The translations under genes were made by a program, and so were the position numbers. Below are positions 26,890 to 34,870 of a stretch of DNA of 34,870 nucleotides, piece by piece (position 1 is the stretch's first letter; the number at the start of each line of letters is the position of its first letter). The notes below the pieces were generated by a model that did not search any database, was not told the origin of the DNA, and saw only the letters and a list, made by a program, of their open reading frames with translations. This DNA comes from Desulfamplus magnetovallimortis (GTDB lineage: Bacteria; Desulfobacterota; Desulfobacteria; Desulfobacterales; Desulfobacteraceae). The DNA lies in contig NZ_LT828546.1 in the NCBI RefSeq assembly GCF_900170035.1, positions 159,941 to 194,810 on the forward strand, written 5' to 3'.

Positions 26890-27110
26890 CTTTTTTTGCA
26901 TTATTCTCCCCCTATCAAGTCTGTGATAGGTGGCCGGAAGGTGAGGTTTCATAACAACAATTCAAACCGGATATTCAAAAAAGGGTACACTCAAAGAATA
27001 CCATACAAAAAATTAAGGATGCCGGTTCTATTAGCAGAAAAAATCAAAAATTAAAACCTGTAAGAAACATCGAAAAATTGCCGCCAGTGATTTGTCAAAG
27101 CTAACAATCA

Positions 27111-27166
27111 GGGTGCAATGCACCTTAGAGACAAAGCATGCCTTTTCTCTAAGGTGCAGATAACCC
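27111..27166. other. Strong hairpin downstream of the sigma-54 regulator
   Basis: TGCACCTTAGAG (27119-27130) pairs perfectly with CTCTAAGGTGCA (27147-27158). The outer arms AGGGT and ACCCT extend the stem past a bulge. The loop contains GCATGC. It sits some 50 nt after the regulator stop and could act as a transcript-end structure, though no T-run follows. Apart from copy A of the 106-bp repeat, nothing else is identifiable in 26706-27210. Confidence 0.5.
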
Positions 27167-27210
27167 TAAAATTAAGTTCAGACAAAATACCAGTATGTCA
27201 CCTTGAACTA

Positions 27211-28638
27211 TTACGGACAAAACCGTTTGGGATCAATCCCAAATTTTTTCATACGTTTCCAGACAGTAACCCGACTCACGCCAAGGCGTTCTGCAGCGCG
27301 TGATTGGTTTCCCTTCTCCGCCCAAAGGGCATCTTCAAGTTCCTGCACCTTACCTTTTTGAACAACTGCGTTTTCAGCAGATGATGTTTTTTCCTGATTA
27401 TTAGAATCTTCCCTGATGGAACCCTCAACTATGCCCACACAATGGTTCCTTTTGCTCATTCCCTGAAGAACCTTGTCCGGAAGGTGCTCTGGTGTAATCA
27501 TGCTTCCATGACACAGGACAAATGCATACTCCACGGCATTTCTCAACTCACGGACATTTCCAGGCCAGGAATATCTTACCATCTGTCTCATGGCATCTGG
27601 TGACAATCCAAGAATATTTTTTCCGTTTTTTCGGGTATTCACCTCAACAAAATGTTGAATAATAAGAGGTATATCACCTTCACGGACAGAGAGAGGAGGA
27701 CAGTTAAGTGGAAATACGTTTATTCTGAAAAAAAGGTCTTCCCTGAACCTGCCCTCCTTCATCAAAACATCAAGGTTCCGGTTTGTAGCAGTGATAATAC
27801 GCACATCAACATCAATGGAAAGATTATCACCCACACGCTCAATCTTTTTTTCCTCAAGAACACGCAAAAGTTTTACCTGAATGGACATTGGAATATCTCC
27901 TATCTCATCCAGAAAAATGGAGCCGCCATGGGCAGCTTCAAACCTTCCTGTACGACTTTTGTCAGCTCCTGTATATGCCCCCCTGATATGCCCAAATAGC
28001 TCACTTTCAAGAAGATTTTCGTTTAATGCAGCACAGTTGACTTTTATAAAGGGCTTGCCAAGCCTTGACCCTGTTTCGTGAACAGCCCTTGCAACAAGCT
28101 CCTTGCCGGTTCCACTCTCTCCAAGAATCATAACGGGAGTATCAGATGCCGCAACATTTTCTATAACCTCAAAAAGTGACTGCATCACAGGACTTTTACC
28201 AACAATGCCATGGAAACCGTCATCAAGTTGGTAGGTTTTCTTTAATGATATAAGCTCATTTTTATAATTGACATTATCAGAAATATCCTTTAGCGTTTCA
28301 ACAGCTCCAACAATATTTCCATCATCGTCATAAAGGACATTTGCACTTTTCATGATATGAATAGAACGATTATACCGGTTGGTAATTCGACACTTCCTGT
28401 CGCGTATCATACCTCTTGAAAAAAGGCCGCACCAGAGCTTTCCCTCACCTTTTCCAATAATGGTGCATCCGGTACAGTTCAATGTTCTGCACGATCTACC
28501 TATAAGGTCATCTTCCGTATATCCTGTCATGAGCTGTGCCGTACTGTTAGCAGCAATAATGTTACCTTTAGCATTAACAATCATGACGCCGTCACGCACT
28601 GACTCAATAATGGTTCTCCAGTATTTGCCAATATCCAT
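27211..28638 (-). CDS. PAS domain sigma-54-dependent transcriptional activator
   Basis: 475 residues from the ATG at 28638, preceded by GAGGGGGGA. The frame continues to 28689 without a ribosome site. The PAS domain is at about 6-125. It carries an unusual cysteine group, CRTLNCTGC (50-58) plus Cys70 and Cys83, which could bind metal, heme or an Fe-S cluster and make it redox-responsive (inference). The central AAA+ domain has Walker A GESGTGKE (173-180), the sigma-54 contact loop GAYTGA (220-225), Walker [10 protein letters not shown] and [11 protein letters not shown]. The C-terminal Fis-type helix-turn-helix is [20 protein letters not shown]. Divergent from the porin-cytochrome operon, whose sigma-54 promoter it probably activates. 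Confidence 0.93.
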
Positions 28639-28667
28639 ATATTTCCCCCCTCGGTATGGTGCTAACC

Positions 28668-28688
28668 TGTTAACATAAACTATTAACA
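28668..28688. promoter_or_regulatory. Candidate activator-binding dyad
   Basis: TGTTAA-N9-TTAACA is a dyad between the regulator and the sigma-54 promoter, about 140-160 bp upstream of the -24 element. That is a usual place for an enhancer-type upstream activator site. It is AT-rich, so it could be chance. Confidence 0.3.
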
Positions 28689-28826
28689 CAACACAGATTT
28701 AATTAACAGCAGCATAAGGGAAAATAAAAAATTCTCTTTCTGATTTTATGACCACCCAAAATAACATCTTAATATAATTAGCAAATCATCAACAATCTTT
28801 TTAACATCCAATACAGACACATCAAT

Positions 28827-28842
28827 TGGCACATCAATTGCA
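28827..28842 (+). promoter_or_regulatory. Sigma-54 (-24/-12) promoter of the porin-cytochrome operon
   Basis: TGGCAC (28827-28832), five bases, then TTGCA (28838-28842) gives the GG and GC dinucleotides at the exact spacing of the RpoN consensus TGGCAC-N5-TTGC. Transcription would start near 28853 and run into the porin gene, giving a leader of about 185 nt. A sigma-54 activator gene lies divergently next to it. Confidence 0.82.
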
Positions 28843-28899
28843 TTAACGACTCCACAGTATCAAAAATGTATCCACAAAGATAAAAATCAATTAGCCTCG

Positions 28900-29005
28900 G
28901 GCATCTCTCAAACAACTACCAAAGCTCTTTACACTTTTAGGAGAAGTATTCCCCCAAAACGAAAATACATCTCTGGAGGGTGAAATCGAGAAATGAAGTA
29001 TATCT
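28900..29005 (+). repeat. Degraded copy of the 106-bp palindromic repeat in the operon leader
   Basis: GGCATCTCTCA at 28900 matches the left end, CTTTACACTTTT the inner arm, and GAGAAATGAAGTAT at about 28989-29001 the right end. Spacing agrees with the 106-bp copies. It lies wholly downstream of the sigma-54 promoter, so it is part of the predicted mRNA leader. The ATG at 28993 falls in its right terminal repeat. Confidence 0.6.
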
Positions 29006-29037
29006 GGCCCGGGACAAAAAAGAGAGGAGTGAAAAGC

Positions 29038-30825
29038 ATGAAAACAAAGCAGATTGACAAAAGTGCCACGATAAAAAAAAGAGTGGCCCGGGGAATTTAT
29101 GGAAAAATTTTTTTTCTTATCCTGATGACCATAATTACAAATTTTTGCCTGTTTCAAAACGTATGGGCATCGGATGACATTGATGGTTTGAAACAGCAGC
29201 TTGAAGAGATGAGCAGAACCATGGAGATGCTCAAATCAAAAATAGAAACAATGGAACAGGAAAAAAAGGCTGAAGAGAAAGAAAGAGCCGAGAACAAGGA
29301 TGAGATATCCTATATCAGCAAGCGCCTTGACAAGGCAGAACTTCACACATCAACTGACAAGATATCCTTTGGCGTGGAGCTGCGCTCCCGCGGGGACTCC
29401 ATCCACTATGACAACATGCTCTCTGCCCCTGACTCAATGATGAATGCATTTTTCTCTCCACCTTCCATGGGCGGTTTCAATGGAGCCACCCTCTCCCAGG
29501 TACAACAGGGGATGCAGAATATGGCAATGGCCGGCATGATTCCCCCTCTGGACTCCAACGATGTTGACAACGACATCATCTTCACCAACAAATTTCATCT
29601 CAACATGAAAGCAAAAGTAAACCAGAACTTAAGTTTTGCCGGTAGAATGGCAGCATACAAGGCCTGGGGTGATTCCACCGGCGTGAAATTCAACCAGGGA
29701 AGCCTTGGAGATATTACATTTGACGGAAACACATCATCTCTGCCCCATGGGGATACAATCCGCCTTGAGAGGGCATATTTCCTTTACAGCAAATACCTTG
29801 GCAAGGTACCAACCAGTTTCTCACTTGGAAGACGTCCTTCAACAAACGGGCCTCCCCTGGAGTATGCGGAATATGATCTTGAAGGTGGCTCTCCCCTTGC
29901 AACAATAATCAACTGGCAGTTTGATGGAGCCTCCCTGAACTTTGGACTTGAAGATTTGACAGGTGTTCCAGGTGCTTCCTTCAAGCTCTGCTACGGAGTT
30001 GGATTTGAAGGAGACTGGGGCAACTCATATTCAATTCAGGAGAGCCAGGCAGAGGTTGAGGATGTGCATCTTTTCGGCTTTATTGCAACCCTTTTTGACA
30101 ATGATTCCTTTAGTGCAGTATTTAACTTTGCCCATGCATGGGATATAACAGACGGATTTACAGGTCTTACAGTAATGCCATTTGCCGTATCAAAATCCGA
30201 TCAGGACGGTGATGGCGTATCCGAGTACTATTTTGAGCCCAACAGCGGCTCATACATCTCACGTATGGAGCCTTACACAGAGATTGGTGACTGGGATGCC
30301 GCAACACTTGTGCTTACAAAAAATCTCTATGAAGAGACAGAAAAAGAGATAGATCTTTTCCTTGCAGGTTCATGGAGCCACACAGATCCATCAGGCATTT
30401 CAGCAAATCCCTTTTACGAAATGATGGGAATGGGACTTTTAAGCTCCAATGGCCAGCTTGAGGCACAGGATGGGTACAGTATATATGCAGGCGCCCTATT
30501 CCCAATGCCTTTTGATGCACGCCTTGGCCTTGAATACAACTGGGGTTCAAAGTACTGGTTTAACTTTACAGGTGCCGAGGATTCACTTGTGGGAAGCAAA
30601 CTTGCAACAAGGGGAAGTGTCTATGAGGGCTACTACATCCAGCCGGTTTACGGACGCAGTTTTTTCCTGAAACTTGGCGCAAGATTCTATGATTATGAAT
30701 ACACCGGAAGCGGCAATCCCCTTGGCAAACCCGTCAAAATATCAGATGCCACATCCTTTGACGGGCTTTTCCCCATAGTAGATGATGTCTGGGATGCATA
30801 TGCATCAGCAACAATGAGGTTCTAA
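29038..30825 (+). CDS. Outer-membrane beta-barrel porin-like protein (DUF3373-like)
   Basis: 595 residues from the ATG at 29038, which has GAGAGGAG before it. The in-frame ATG at 28993 lies in a repeat and lacks a ribosome site. The signal peptide is basic and long (cleavage near NVWA-SDD, residue 44). Residues 47-102 form a coiled coil (GLKQQLEEMSRTMEMLKSKI), as in porins that trimerise through an N-terminal helix. The remainder alternates aromatic and polar residues and ends in ASATMRF, the terminal Phe typical of outer-membrane barrels. From memory it best fits the DUF3373 family of delta- and epsilonproteobacteria. First gene of the sigma-54 operon with the octaheme cytochrome, so it may admit the cytochrome's substrate. 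Confidence 0.75.
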   Translation: MKTKQIDKSATIKKRVARGIYGKIFFLILMTIITNFCLFQNVWASDDIDGLKQQLEEMSRTMEMLKSKIETMEQEKKAEEKERAENKDEISYISKRLDKAELHTSTDKISFGVELRSRGDSIHYDNMLSAPDSMMNAFFSPPSMGGFNGATLSQVQQGMQNMAMAGMIPPLDSNDVDNDIIFTNKFHLNMKAKVNQNLSFAGRMAAYKAWGDSTGVKFNQGSLGDITFDGNTSSLPHGDTIRLERAYFLYSKYLGKVPTSFSLGRRPSTNGPPLEYAEYDLEGGSPLATIINWQFDGASLNFGLEDLTGVPGASFKLCYGVGFEGDWGNSYSIQESQAEVEDVHLFGFIATLFDNDSFSAVFNFAHAWDITDGFTGLTVMPFAVSKSDQDGDGVSEYYFEPNSGSYISRMEPYTEIGDWDAATLVLTKNLYEETEKEIDLFLAGSWSHTDPSGISANPFYEMMGMGLLSSNGQLEAQDGYSIYAGALFPMPFDARLGLEYNWGSKYWFNFTGAEDSLVGSKLATRGSVYEGYYIQPVYGRSFFLKLGARFYDYEYTGSGNPLGKPVKISDATSFDGLFPIVDDVWDAYASATMRF

Positions 30826-30963
30826 TGCTCTTTCAATGTTTGATGGTGGTAGAAAAACACCTTGAAACTTTAAAATTGTCTAAAAAATCATCCAACAATT
30901 TAAACTTAAAGAAGTATTGATATATTTTCATGACAAAACACTAATATTAAGGAGACCGCAAAA

Positions 30964-31311
30964 ATGACTAAAAAACTTTTTATTTCAACAATAACATTCT
31001 TCTTTATTATAACCTTTACAGCAATGGCATTTGCAGAAGAGCCGGCCGGCAACAAAAGAAAAGGCAAATATACCTACAAAAAAGTTTATAAATCATGCAT
31101 GGAGAGGGGTGAAGTTGAGTCTGAACGCCCCATCATAAACCCTTCTGACAAAACAATGTCTCAATGGCAGCGTGTTTTTGAAACAAAGGATTTCAGTGAA
31201 TTCAAGTGTGCTGAAGATTGGAAAAACCTCAATGAAGAGGAGCTTCTTGATATCTATTCATATCTTTATACAGGTGCAGCAGATTCTCCCACCCCTGCAA
31301 AATGCAAATAG
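30964..31311 (+). CDS. Small periplasmic protein, heme-less cytochrome-c-like
   Basis: 115 residues with a clear signal peptide (cleavage near AMAFA-EE, residue 25) and AAGGAG upstream. The pattern KYTYKKVYKSCMERGE, then a helix and EEELLDIYSYLYTGAADSPT, resembles small monoheme cytochromes c. Here, however, the expected CxxCH is YKSCM (residues 42-46), so covalent heme attachment looks impossible. Cys45, Cys82 and Cys114 remain. It sits between the porin and the octaheme cytochrome and could be a partner or a remnant. Function unknown. Confidence 0.7.
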   Translation: MTKKLFISTITFFFIITFTAMAFAEEPAGNKRKGKYTYKKVYKSCMERGEVESERPIINPSDKTMSQWQRVFETKDFSEFKCAEDWKNLNEEELLDIYSYLYTGAADSPTPAKCK

Positions 31312-31387
31312 ACCTTCCTGGCCTGGGAATACTACTCAATGCTTTTGCCTTAAGAATTTTAAGGCATTGATATCTCCCCAGCACTTG

Positions 31388-31476
31388 TCTGAATCAGGAT
31401 AACCAAGATGAAAAAGATGTTCAGGATAGATTAATCATGTCTTATCCTGTTAATCCTGGATATCCTGATTCTGACA
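31388..31476. repeat. CAGGAT/ATCCTG intergenic dyad repeat, second copy
   Basis: TCTGAATCAGGATAACCAAG at the left faces TTAATCCTGGATATCCTGAT at the right. The words and layout match the dyad inside 4813-4991. It lies in the 284-bp spacer before the octaheme cytochrome gene. Confidence 0.65.
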
Positions 31477-31595
31477 GCATCAAGGAAGTAAATCACAGCC
31501 ATGAATGCAGATGCATAAATAGCATTGGGCATAAACCCACGAACATCTCTTTGATAAAAATTTATATCCATTTCAACGGTAAAATGGAGGTATGA

Positions 31596-33293
31596 ATGAC
31601 CAAAATCCAAACAGCACAAAAATCAATTACTGCTGGATTAATTAAATTTCTCTGCTCTCTCATTATTATTGTCTTGATGCTTGTTCCCCAGACCATCAAA
31701 GCAAGCAGCAATACAGAAGAGACCATTGATGCGCCAGGAAGAACACTTGCAAGACAGGCAGTTAAGCGTGAAAAAAGATGGATAACAACTGACCACTCAA
31801 AACATGAAGCCCTTAAAAAAGATTTCATGTCCGGTGACGAGATTACAGAAGCTTGCCTCTCCTGCCATTCCGAAGCTTCCACCCAGTTCCATAAAACCAT
31901 CCACTGGACATGGCTGGCTTCAGGAGAACCCCAAACAGATTCAGAGAAGACAGATTCAGAGAAAAAGGACAAAACAGACCGTAACTATGGAAAGGCCGGC
32001 TACTCGGTGAACAATTTCTGTATCTCGGCAAACAACATGCAGGACAAAGCATGTCTTAAATGTCATACAGGATGGAACGGCAAAACAGGCAAGGTAAACT
32101 GCCTTAAATGTCATGGTTCTGAACAGTTCAACTACACAGAAGCCTTTACCGATATCAAGGCATTTGCCGAAGAATCCAAGGATGACCCGAGCGTTTTGGA
32201 AATAATGAAGGAGATACAGGGAGAAGTAAAGGCTGCTGTGGAAAAAATCACGCTTCCCCAAAGGGATAACTGTGGGCAATGCCATTTCAAGGGAGGCGGC
32301 GGAGATGGTGTCAAACACGGTGATCTTGACACATCCCTGATGAAACCCAACAAACGCCTTGATGTCCACATGGGAATCGACGGCAAAAACTTCACATGTA
32401 CCCGATGCCACACCACCACCAACCACAACATTGCAGGCAGAATATATACCAACCCCGCTGTTGAAAGCAGCAAAAGCCTTCTTGAAGATGATCTTGCCCC
32501 AAAAATTACATGTGTCTCGTGTCACAGTGAAACCCCCCATAAAACAGCCTCCAAGATGAACGATCACACTGACAGGGTGGCGTGCCAATCCTGTCATATT
32601 CCGGATTTTGCAAGGGTCAACCCAACAAAAATGAGCTGGAACTGGTCAAAAGCAGGGGATCTCAAAGATGGAAAGCCCTATGACATTATAGGGGATTTGG
32701 GAAAAGAGACATATAAATCCATCAAAGGGGAGATGACCTGGGAAAAGAATGTTAAACCGGTATATTTCTGGTCAAATGGCACCCAGACCAGCACAACCGC
32801 AGTTGATATAATAGATCCTTCAACTGTTGTTAAGGTAAGTCAGCCGGTGGGAAGCGTAAATGACAGGGATTCACGCATATATCCTTTCAAATTACACAAA
32901 GGCAAACAACCCTATGACAAAGTAAACAAAACCCTCCTCACTCCACTTCTATCAGGCCCCAAGGGCTACTGGACAACATTCAACTGGGACGAATCCCTGA
33001 CGATTGGCAGCGAAATGCTGGGACTTCCCTTTTCCGGTGAGTTCGATTTTGTTGAAAGCACCTATGTTTTCCCGATAACCCACATGGTAGCACCAAAAGA
33101 TATGGCATTAAACTGCACTGAATGCCACACAAGGGAAACAGGGCGTCTTGAGAGTCTTGCCGAATTTTACATGCCCGGAAGAGATCGTTTTAAACTCATA
33201 GATTCACTGGGATGGCTTGTGGTACTGGGCTCGCTTGCCGGTGTCAGCCTTCATGGTCTTGGAAGATTTTTTACAAGAAACGGGAAAAAATAA
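31596..33293 (+). CDS. Octaheme c-type cytochrome, tetrathionate reductase family
   Basis: 565 residues with eight CxxCH heme sites at 87-91, 153-157, 169-173, 226-230, 268-272, 306-310, 330-334 and 507-511. This count, the spacing and the wide gap before the last site fit the tetrathionate-reductase-family octaheme cytochromes (OTR). OTR can reduce tetrathionate, nitrite and hydroxylamine in vitro, so the physiological substrate here is open. A signal segment lies at about 10-36. A C-terminal hydrophobic helix (LGWLVVLGSLAGVSLHGLGR) would anchor it on the periplasmic face. Residues 114-123 are a direct TDSEK duplication (15 bp, twice). A TGGAGG ribosome site precedes the ATG. Followed by a cytochrome b gene that likely supplies electrons. 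Confidence 0.92.
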   Translation: MTKIQTAQKSITAGLIKFLCSLIIIVLMLVPQTIKASSNTEETIDAPGRTLARQAVKREKRWITTDHSKHEALKKDFMSGDEITEACLSCHSEASTQFHKTIHWTWLASGEPQTDSEKTDSEKKDKTDRNYGKAGYSVNNFCISANNMQDKACLKCHTGWNGKTGKVNCLKCHGSEQFNYTEAFTDIKAFAEESKDDPSVLEIMKEIQGEVKAAVEKITLPQRDNCGQCHFKGGGGDGVKHGDLDTSLMKPNKRLDVHMGIDGKNFTCTRCHTTTNHNIAGRIYTNPAVESSKSLLEDDLAPKITCVSCHSETPHKTASKMNDHTDRVACQSCHIPDFARVNPTKMSWNWSKAGDLKDGKPYDIIGDLGKETYKSIKGEMTWEKNVKPVYFWSNGTQTSTTAVDIIDPSTVVKVSQPVGSVNDRDSRIYPFKLHKGKQPYDKVNKTLLTPLLSGPKGYWTTFNWDESLTIGSEMLGLPFSGEFDFVESTYVFPITHMVAPKDMALNCTECHTRETGRLESLAEFYMPGRDRFKLIDSLGWLVVLGSLAGVSLHGLGRFFTRNGKK

Positions 33294-33378
33294 AAGGGAT
33301 AACTGTCAGGTCACCCCCATTATCTGGTCATGTTGAAGAAGTTGGTGGAGGTGACAAGAAATCAACAGGAGATCTGTT

Positions 33379-34035
33379 ATGACACATACAAAAATTATTA
33401 AAATATATCTTTATACGAGATTTGAAAGATTCTGGCACTGGCTTCAGGCCATAATGATACTCTTTCTTCTGATTACCGGATTTGAAATCCACGGAACCTA
33501 TACCCTGCTTGGTTATAAAACAGCGGTATTCACCCATAACTTTGTGGGTCTTTCATGGCTTGTGCTCTTTGCATTCTTTGTCTTCTGGGTATTTACAACA
33601 GGAGAGTGGCGCCAATATATTCCCACAACCAAAAAGCTTTTTGATGTAATAATCTATTACTCCTTCGGCATTTTCCAGGGCAAGCCCCATCCTGTGGAAA
33701 AAACTCCGGGAGCCAAGCACAATCCCCTGCAAAGGCTTACATACCTTGCACTTTCGGCACTTTTGCTTCCAGTTCAAATGCTGACGGGGATCCTGTATTA
33801 TACATGGAATACATGGAATACATGGTCAGGCATGGGCATCCCCCTGGCACCTGTTGCGATGATACATACATTTGTAGCTTTCATGCTTCTATCGTTTCTG
33901 CTTGTGCATGTATATATGACAACAACAGGGCATTCACTGTTCAGCCATATTGCAGGGATGATTACCGGATGGGAAGAGATCTATGAAACCACCCCCATTC
34001 AGGAGTGGGAGCTTCCGGAGAAGCGAAGAGTTTGA
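33379..34035 (+). CDS. Cytochrome b561-like quinol-oxidising subunit
   Basis: 218 residues and four or more membrane spans. It resembles the di-heme cytochrome b subunits of hydrogenases, formate dehydrogenases and thiosulfate reductases. Likely heme ligands are His20 (RFERFWHWLQ), His53 (FTHNFVGL), His163 (MIHTFVAF) and His177 (LLVHVYMTTTGH). NPLQRLTYLAL is a common cytoplasmic-loop signature. It would oxidise quinol and pass electrons to the octaheme cytochrome encoded 85 nt upstream. A 9-bp unit repeated three times (33802-33828) gives the YTWNTWNTWSG stretch in a periplasmic loop. Confidence 0.9.
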   Translation: MTHTKIIKIYLYTRFERFWHWLQAIMILFLLITGFEIHGTYTLLGYKTAVFTHNFVGLSWLVLFAFFVFWVFTTGEWRQYIPTTKKLFDVIIYYSFGIFQGKPHPVEKTPGAKHNPLQRLTYLALSALLLPVQMLTGILYYTWNTWNTWSGMGIPLAPVAMIHTFVAFMLLSFLLVHVYMTTTGHSLFSHIAGMITGWEEIYETTPIQEWELPEKRRV

Positions 34036-34049
34036 CAGCGTTGAAACCT

Positions 34050-34230
34050 CACTGCCCCCTCTCCATTACTGGCAATGTTGTTGCATTAGGGTTTGTTCGG
34101 CTATTCAAAGCCTTTAATAATGAGGCTTTCAGCCCCCATTTATGGTACATCATGAGCTTAAGTCAACAGTATTGTCCATTACTGGAGATGGGGAACATGG
34201 GTAAGTTAGCTCGTACTCATTCCTAATGCA
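34050..34230. repeat. Palindromic intergenic repeat related to 16262-16615
   Basis: CCCCCTCTCCATTACTGGCA on the left faces CCATTACTGGAGATGGGGAA on the right. GCTTAAGTCAACAGTATTG and GGGTAAGTTAG also correspond to parts of the element at 16262-16615. An inner hairpin (AAAGCC...GGCTTT) lies near 34105-34130. It follows the cytochrome b gene and could end its transcript by structure. Confidence 0.65.
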
Positions 34231-34233
34231 ACT

Positions 34234-34857
34234 TCATTTGCCATTAACATCCTTGTCATCAAATCCAACACGGTAATAAATATCTGACAAAGAGAGTTCA
34301 CAACCAATTGATTCTATAATAAAATGCTGCCCCATATCTGTGTATGGAGTCAATATCTGCCAGATCCCGCCATCACCACGAACAAACTGCTCTACATTAC
34401 AGGTGTTCTGGGATACAAGTATATATTCCTTGAAGGATGGAATAAGCCTGTAGTGATTGAATTTTATCCCTCTGTCATATGCTTCGGTTGAGTCAGAAAG
34501 GATCTCCATGATCACAACTGGATTGAGCAGGGTATCAAGCCCGTTTATCTTTTCAAGTTCAATATCTCCACAGACAACTGCAATGTCCGGATATGTATAT
34601 TTTTCAAGTTCGTTTACCTTGACCCTCATTTCCCCTGAAAAATTTTCACATGAAGAACCTTTTAGCTCTATTCCCAACTCCCTTTCAATATTTCTGCTTA
34701 TCCGGTTATGGTTCAAACTGGCCCCTGTCATTGCAAAAATTTCACCCTCAAAGTATTCATGTTTTATCTCTGAGTTCTTTTCCAGTTCTAAATATTCCTG
34801 TTGATTTATCAGAGGTGTTTTCTGGGTTGAGCATTCATTTTTCATTTTTCCCATCAT
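34234..34857 (-). CDS. Uma2-family (DUF820) PD-(D/E)XK endonuclease-like protein
   Basis: 207 residues, full length for the family. Visible family features are YLELEKNSEIKHEYFEGEIF, AMTGASLNHNRISRNI, the catalytic-type YTYPDIAVVCG, and VVIMEILSDSTEAYDRGIKF followed by NHYRLIPSFKEYILV. Uma2 proteins are restriction-endonuclease-fold proteins of unknown role that occur in many copies in cyanobacteria and other large genomes. There are three candidate ATGs close together (34857, 34854, 34845); GGGA before the last makes 34845 possible. It reads towards the cytochrome operon. Its upstream region runs off the window. Confidence 0.88.
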   Translation of the reverse strand: MMGKMKNECSTQKTPLINQQEYLELEKNSEIKHEYFEGEIFAMTGASLNHNRISRNIERELGIELKGSSCENFSGEMRVKVNELEKYTYPDIAVVCGDIELEKINGLDTLLNPVVIMEILSDSTEAYDRGIKFNHYRLIPSFKEYILVSQNTCNVEQFVRGDGGIWQILTPYTDMGQHFIIESIGCELSLSDIYYRVGFDDKDVNGK

Positions 34858-34870
34858 TTTTTTTATATGA

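Follow-up and report, generated by a model that had tools for sequence, protein, structure and literature searches.

The arrangement closest to the one analysed here has been predicted for Desulfovibrio vulgaris, where the sigma-54 regulator DVU3142 is divergent from the octaheme operon ohcBAC (PMC4641369). The comparison is one of layout: in both cases a one-component sigma-54 activator is divergent from an operon for an octaheme cytochrome c and a b-type membrane protein, and the available text of that paper also predicts sigma-54 promoters and activator sites. It reports in addition that a promoter was retained in one species after gene loss, a further likeness to the present unit. On that partial account, a divergent sigma-54 regulator with an octaheme operon is already a known layout. 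The two systems differ in that ohcBAC includes the iron-sulfur protein OhcB, whereas a porin, a rhodanese and a small protein are unmentioned in the same excerpts (PMC4641369). Another point of reference is the octaheme tetrathionate reductase of Shewanella (1sp3; TIGR04315), which the cytochrome of the present locus resembles in family score, in its eight CXXCH motifs and in the Cys of an NNFC motif, and from which it differs in possessing a C-terminal hydrophobic stretch, in being followed by a b-type cytochrome gene and in lying in a sigma-54 operon. One relative in this family (OTR) reduced both tetrathionate and nitrite and its authors caution against the prediction of substrates, as stated in the available part of PMC6449678.

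The extHIJKL genes of Geobacter offer a parallel parts list, comprising a rhodanese, a porin, a small protein, a multiheme cytochrome and a divergent regulator (PMC5877670 and PMC6148476, in the sections available), with the regulator belonging to the LysR family, with marked exceptions (PMC6148476). Membership of the present locus in this group was considered and rejected, since no sign of a relationship was found when eight ExtKL loci were searched with the proteins of our locus and two of them were scanned with Pfam. In the scanned loci the porin belongs to PF07396 (2 of 2) and the divergent gene encodes a LysR protein (1 of 1). Our porin, small protein and activator PAS domain found no match in the eight loci at E 0.05, and marginal matches were obtained with a rhodanese (0.010) and with the octaheme protein (0.007). 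The general AAA+ part of the activator does match two of these loci (L189 and L190), where sigma-54 activator-like AAA+ genes are located near the ExtKL genes (L189:10288-11253 and L190:5171-6208), so that a sigma-54 activator may be present close to some of the ExtKL loci. The octaheme protein gave no match to NF040886 at 0.001. In the part of its main text available, PMC2725144 does not name GSU2937, GSU2939 or GSU2940.

The window, by which we mean the entire stretch of 34,870 nucleotides analysed, derives from an assembly of Desulfamplus magnetovallimortis of 6.68 Mb in 108 contigs, 97.3% complete. Its relevant features are collected in Table 1. We consider it highly probable, from the sequence and its conservation, that the box at 28827-28842 is a working sigma-54 promoter, driven by the divergent PAS/AAA+ activator through a TTAAC array and transcribing a reductase operon that would extend from the porin gene to the b-type cytochrome gene.

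Table 1. Features of the predicted control unit and operon, in window coordinates
Feature	Coordinates	Strand	Basis and remarks
Sigma-54 enhancer-binding protein: PAS domain with five conserved Cys, AAA+ domain with GAYTGA, Fis-type HTH	27211..28638	-	PF13426, PF00158, PF25601, PF02954
Putative activator binding array	28662..28707	.	Sequence, enrichment, overlap with the second most conserved alignment block
Candidate half-sites of the array	28662-28674; 28683-28687; 28703-28707		CTAAC-CT-GTTAAC (CTAACCTGTTAAC); TTAAC; TTAAC
Predicted -24/-12 sigma-54 promoter, start predicted at about 28853	28827..28842	+	TGGCAC-ATCAA-TTGCA; sequence, consensus, conservation
DUF3373 outer-membrane porin	29038..30825	+	PF11853, E 2.2e-123; open frame readable from 28993
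Small protein, 115 aa, signal-peptide-like start (by eye), frequent operon member	30964..31311	+	Sequence
OTR (tetrathionate-reductase) family octaheme c-type cytochrome, C-terminal hydrophobic stretch	31596..33293	+	TIGR04315, 1sp3, eight CXXCH
Cytochrome b561-type membrane subunit	33379..34035	+	PF01292; behind the octaheme gene in most loci

A preliminary description of this DNA had proposed that an RpoN consensus with exact spacing points at the porin gene and is flanked by a divergent sigma-54 activator with an intact GAYTGA loop, and all of this is borne out. The box, TGGCACATCAATTGCA, is an exact instance of TGGCAC-N5-TTGCW, with its GG and GC ten bases apart. It lies on the plus strand ahead of the porin gene and is the sole zero-mismatch site when both strands of the window are scanned. 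Sites with up to two mismatches number 24, as against a mean of 22.7 in shuffled sequences, and because this fuzzy count is at the level of chance we place weight only on the exact site and its conservation. One such imperfect site, TGGCAATGTTGTTGCA at 34070-34085 with one mismatch, is located between the b-type cytochrome gene and an opposed Uma2-family gene and is probably a chance occurrence. The predicted start rests on the rule-based distance from the -12 position.

Across the genome the exact pattern occurs 20 times and a control pattern read backwards not at all. A single sequence, TGGCACATTGTTTGCT, lies behind seven of the 20 matches (at L003, L010, L011, L013, L014, L015 and L016); five of these seven copies fall within open frames of at least 100 codons, and the seven are perhaps a repeated element rather than promoters. 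Classification by neighbourhood, carried out for 19 of the 20 sites, places some ahead of plausible sigma-54 targets, including genes for a cytochrome bd-like subunit (L009) and a FlgN-like protein (L018), both named from sequence without a search, and others within open frames. The genome encodes RpoN, with one match to PF04552 (E 7.1e-61).

The conservation of the box was assessed in two sets of loci, which overlap in genomes and consist of relatives that are not independent. For the first, the activator was sought in 59 genomes of the family, 48 of which gave matches at E <= 1e-100, and the best 30 loci (L023-L052, including that of the window) were analysed, all with activators at least 61% identical. 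All 30 carry a box of the form [TC]GGCA[CT]-N5-TTGC at a distance of 134-233 nt from the start of the activator, as TGGCAC in 26 and as CGGCA[CT] in four. Column identities at boxes chosen with a pattern are biased by that pattern, a bias from which an unanchored alignment and a comparison with shuffled sequences are both free. In the unanchored alignment of the 30 orthologous intergenic regions, the most conserved stretch consists of exactly the 16 columns 28827-28842 (0.804, against a mean of 0.234). The second most conserved block, at about 28687-28704, overlaps the TTAAC array.

The second set was obtained by scanning GTDB genomes with an alignment of the octaheme protein and keeping the best 80 of 205 relatives. 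The activator is present in 60 of these 80 named loci, and 58 of the 60 have a box in the interval from it to the first recognised gene of the operon, within 260 nt in 53. When the window is added to the 60, 54 of 61 loci have a box no more than 260 nt from the start of the activator. Dinucleotide shuffling of the 61 loci, repeated for 200 rounds, gave a mean of 0.165 and a maximum of 2, and the reversed box was found in 0 of 61. The first recognised gene behind the box in the 60 loci is that of the rhodanese in 32, the porin in 15, the small protein in 11 and the octaheme protein in one, with none in the remaining one. The box thus stays while the first recognised operon gene changes. The closest named relatives by octaheme gene are two Desulfamplus MAGs (L073 and L074); in one of these (L074:1821-5848) no porin is seen, a rhodanese gene is located behind the b-type cytochrome gene, and the box is kept. 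Another locus (L108:9001-14127) carries two tandem pairs of octaheme and b-type cytochrome genes, and two boxes lie in the interval that separates the activator from the operon's first gene.

These data bear on the possibility that the operon is read from a sigma-70 promoter and that the box is a relic. A single weak sigma-70-like site (28703-28732, 9 of 12 positions) does face the operon in the intergenic region, but such sites are equally common in shuffled sequence (18 were found in 27000-34870, with a mean of 16.9 in shuffles), and a box that is the most conserved stretch of the region is not what one would expect of a relic. We regard this explanation as extremely unlikely. As a whole, the conservation of the box, of the activator and of the upstream sites strongly supports the prediction of a sigma-54 promoter under the divergent PAS/AAA+ activator.

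The association of activator, box and operon does have exceptions. An activator ortholog was not detected in 20 of the 80 named loci, of which 13 hold less than 1 kb before the first operon gene and seven hold 4.8-9 kb, so that the pairing of activator and operon is common but not universal. Four of the seven with long upstream stretches (L122, L144, L149 and L151) contain no box in the 500 nt upstream. At one locus (L127) the activator is present and nothing matches the box pattern, and at another (L141) the activator sits behind the operon. More distantly, 297 genomes of the phylum were searched and yielded 49 places, 20 of which were taken as a distant set. The activator is present in seven of these 20 loci, and in four of the seven a box lies within 330 nt of it; no box was found near the activator in two others (L161 and L175), and a further one (L162) has only a weak box at 710 nt. 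In two distant loci that lack an activator ortholog (L170 and L171), a box precedes the octaheme match by 214 and 181 nt, respectively.

A second possibility is that the promoter is real, and that the divergent activator has its main targets elsewhere or that a different activator drives the promoter. This would fit the five named loci (L110, L118, L132, L143 and L147) in which a box lies 103-189 nt upstream of the first recognised gene and no activator is detected, as well as the large number of activators in the genome, where a first search with the activator protein returned 105 candidates, of which 26 were scored. When further activator sites were sought across the genome, a pattern built from the arrays of more distant relatives gave two matches against nine for the reversed pattern. 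This search is uninformative on further targets; it missed the window's own array, in which the half-sites are spaced differently. Against this possibility, activator and operon occur together in the 60 named loci described above, and the TTAAC array is located between them. Further, the ABC-transporter genes found behind the activator in the window had no match at E 1e-20 in the 80 named loci, although 39 of the 60 activator-carrying loci hold about 3 kb or more on that side. We consider this second possibility very unlikely, and we return to control by the divergent activator.

The activator very probably starts at the ATG at 28638 (MDIGK) rather than at the listed GTG at 28689, a choice based on homology. 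Its domains are those of a sigma-54 activator (Table 1), and it carries the Walker A sequence GESGTGKE in addition to GAYTGA. The pattern G[AS][FY]TGA is matched in 29 of the 30 family loci, with L031 as the exception, and at least one locus lacks the Walker A pattern used. Among the 25 NCBIfam models listed of the 34 matched by the activator, none exceeded its cut-off. Over the 110 nt immediately preceding the activator gene, TTAAC or its complement GTTAA occurs 4.57 times per locus over the 61 loci, as compared with 0.55 in shuffles. The array is likely the site at which the activator binds, and we describe it as putative. It lies upstream of the box at a distance of 120-165 nt, the usual distance of an enhancer site from its promoter. 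As it falls within the activator's own leader, autoregulation is possible. The array and the PAS sensing domain discussed below are candidates that go beyond the preliminary description.

Turning to the genes that would be controlled, the families of their products are observed directly and the extent of the operon is predicted. The porin more likely begins at the ATG at 29038 than at 28993, since homology to the copy from the same genus begins at residue 14 of the longer frame. Its profile has a sole strong match in the PDB, 10aw (50 kDa outer membrane protein, E 7.5e-22), which we take to be of the Omp50 type; three other matches are to short coiled-coil entries. The 115-residue small protein has no match to a Pfam or NCBIfam family at 0.001. 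The intergenic gaps between the porin and small-protein genes and between the small-protein and octaheme genes are 138 and 284 nt (within 30826-31595). The octaheme protein scores 496.9 bits against TIGR04315 (cut-off 375) and matches 1sp3 with E 2.2e-97, and the b561-type subunit is likely its quinol donor. Gene order behind the box varies over the 60 activator-linked loci. Many related operons encode a rhodanese protein, and the one copy that was scanned has three domains; there is none in the window operon, and no ortholog was found in its 97.3% complete genome assembly (best match 41% over 104 residues, E 1e-10), so that the rhodanese has probably been lost here. According to the available text of PMC10376724, octaheme SirA-like cytochromes are likewise found together with rhodanese proteins in Dethiobacter.

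The co-occurrence in one operon of a DUF3373 porin gene and a multiheme gene raises the possibility that the module is an extracellular electron conduit. This concerns the function of the operon and is compatible with the sigma-54 switch. Conduits are in use among the Desulfobacterota, as described in the parts available of PMC6148476 and PMC10553843, and the octaheme cytochrome exceeds the cut-off of PF22113 (MtrC/MtrF domains II/IV; 42.4 bits, cut-off 30), which fits a conduit too. However, this same cytochrome is above the cut-off for OTR, the match obtained with the porin profile is to a 50 kDa outer membrane protein, and no c-type cytochrome gene other than the octaheme gene was found in the window operon. 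In addition, the porin is present in 18 of the 60 activator-linked loci and absent from the stretch covered in the other 42, where some contigs are short. A conduit appears unlikely. The term porin-cytochrome operon, used in the preliminary description, is literally correct, and the evidence leans to a periplasmic reductase with an optional porin. On balance, the module is best regarded as an OTR-family octaheme reductase, a b-type cytochrome and a small exported protein, with the porin optional. The enzyme it encodes is most likely inducible, quinol-linked and periplasmic, and would reduce a small oxidised compound of sulfur (or of nitrogen or selenium).

A redox role for one residue of this reductase is suggested by the comparison of relatives. 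Cys142, the Cys of the NNFC motif, is invariant in an alignment of 19 sequences, that of the window and those of 18 relatives, and aligns with chain position 64 of 1sp3, presumably an active-site residue. In six of the 20 distant loci (L165, L174, L176, L177, L178 and L179) an in-frame TGA is located exactly at this position. Of the 49 phylum-search matches, 20 contain one TGA each, its place having been checked in those six only. No ortholog of the window activator was found in the fetched stretches of the six TGA loci, one of which (L178) has a more distant relative. A selenoprotein form of TIGR04315 is listed in the available part of a 2026 review (PMC13188914), so that the TGA at Cys142 is not new and nevertheless supports a redox role of the residue. 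Selenocysteine had also been suspected near the C-terminal helix of the octaheme protein; this was ruled out, as the tails show none and the in-frame TGA lies elsewhere.

The PAS domain of the activator has cysteines of its own. All 67 orthologs, defined as at least 51% identical with an alignment beginning before residue 36, retain C50, C55, C58, C70 and C83 (numbered from MDIGK). Among five more distant activator relatives, all five cysteines are common to two (L072 and L089). The first of these is a paralogous five-Cys PAS activator encoded in the same genome (L072:1701-3614, minus strand) with an exact box at G000:C8:11912-11927; the box separates the activator from genes for FAD/4Fe-4S and CCG-domain proteins (Hdr-like by our own naming) that start about 1.1 kb further on. 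A search of the PDB with the PAS profile gave 83 chains at E 0.01, and the 60 listed are PAS sensors of various kinds. The cysteines may serve to detect a metal, cluster or sulfur species. We offer, as a tentative and rather doubtful extension, that the five-Cys PAS activator acts as a dedicated sensor (thiol, persulfide or iron-sulfur) and links the status of sulfur compounds (or selenium) to the Cys/Sec octaheme reductase, in a regulon that spans the Desulfobacterales and in which the control unit (activator, TTAAC array and box) is kept and the rhodanese and porin genes are variable.

A plausible sequence of events may be formulated as follows. RpoN-RNA polymerase would sit at the box in a closed complex, while the activator would bind the TTAAC half-sites in its own leader. 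DNA looping would then bring the activator to the polymerase, and the promoter would open once the five-Cys PAS domain has reached the appropriate state. As is general for sigma-54 promoters, the operon would be expected to remain off until this domain senses an inducer. The resulting transcript would span the genes for the porin, the small protein, the OTR-family octaheme cytochrome and the b-type cytochrome, and the porin may admit the substrate. In this scheme the binding of protein to DNA, the start site, the inducer and the substrate are predictions.

Among the best matches listed from a literature search, with the two papers that mention DUF3373 left aside, no paper deals with the DUF3373/OTR operon or its activator. 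The locus thus offers a sharply testable control unit for a widespread and apparently uncharacterised reductase operon of sulfate reducers, complete with candidates for the binding motif and for the sensing site, and the identity of the inducer would point toward the substrate of the octaheme enzyme.
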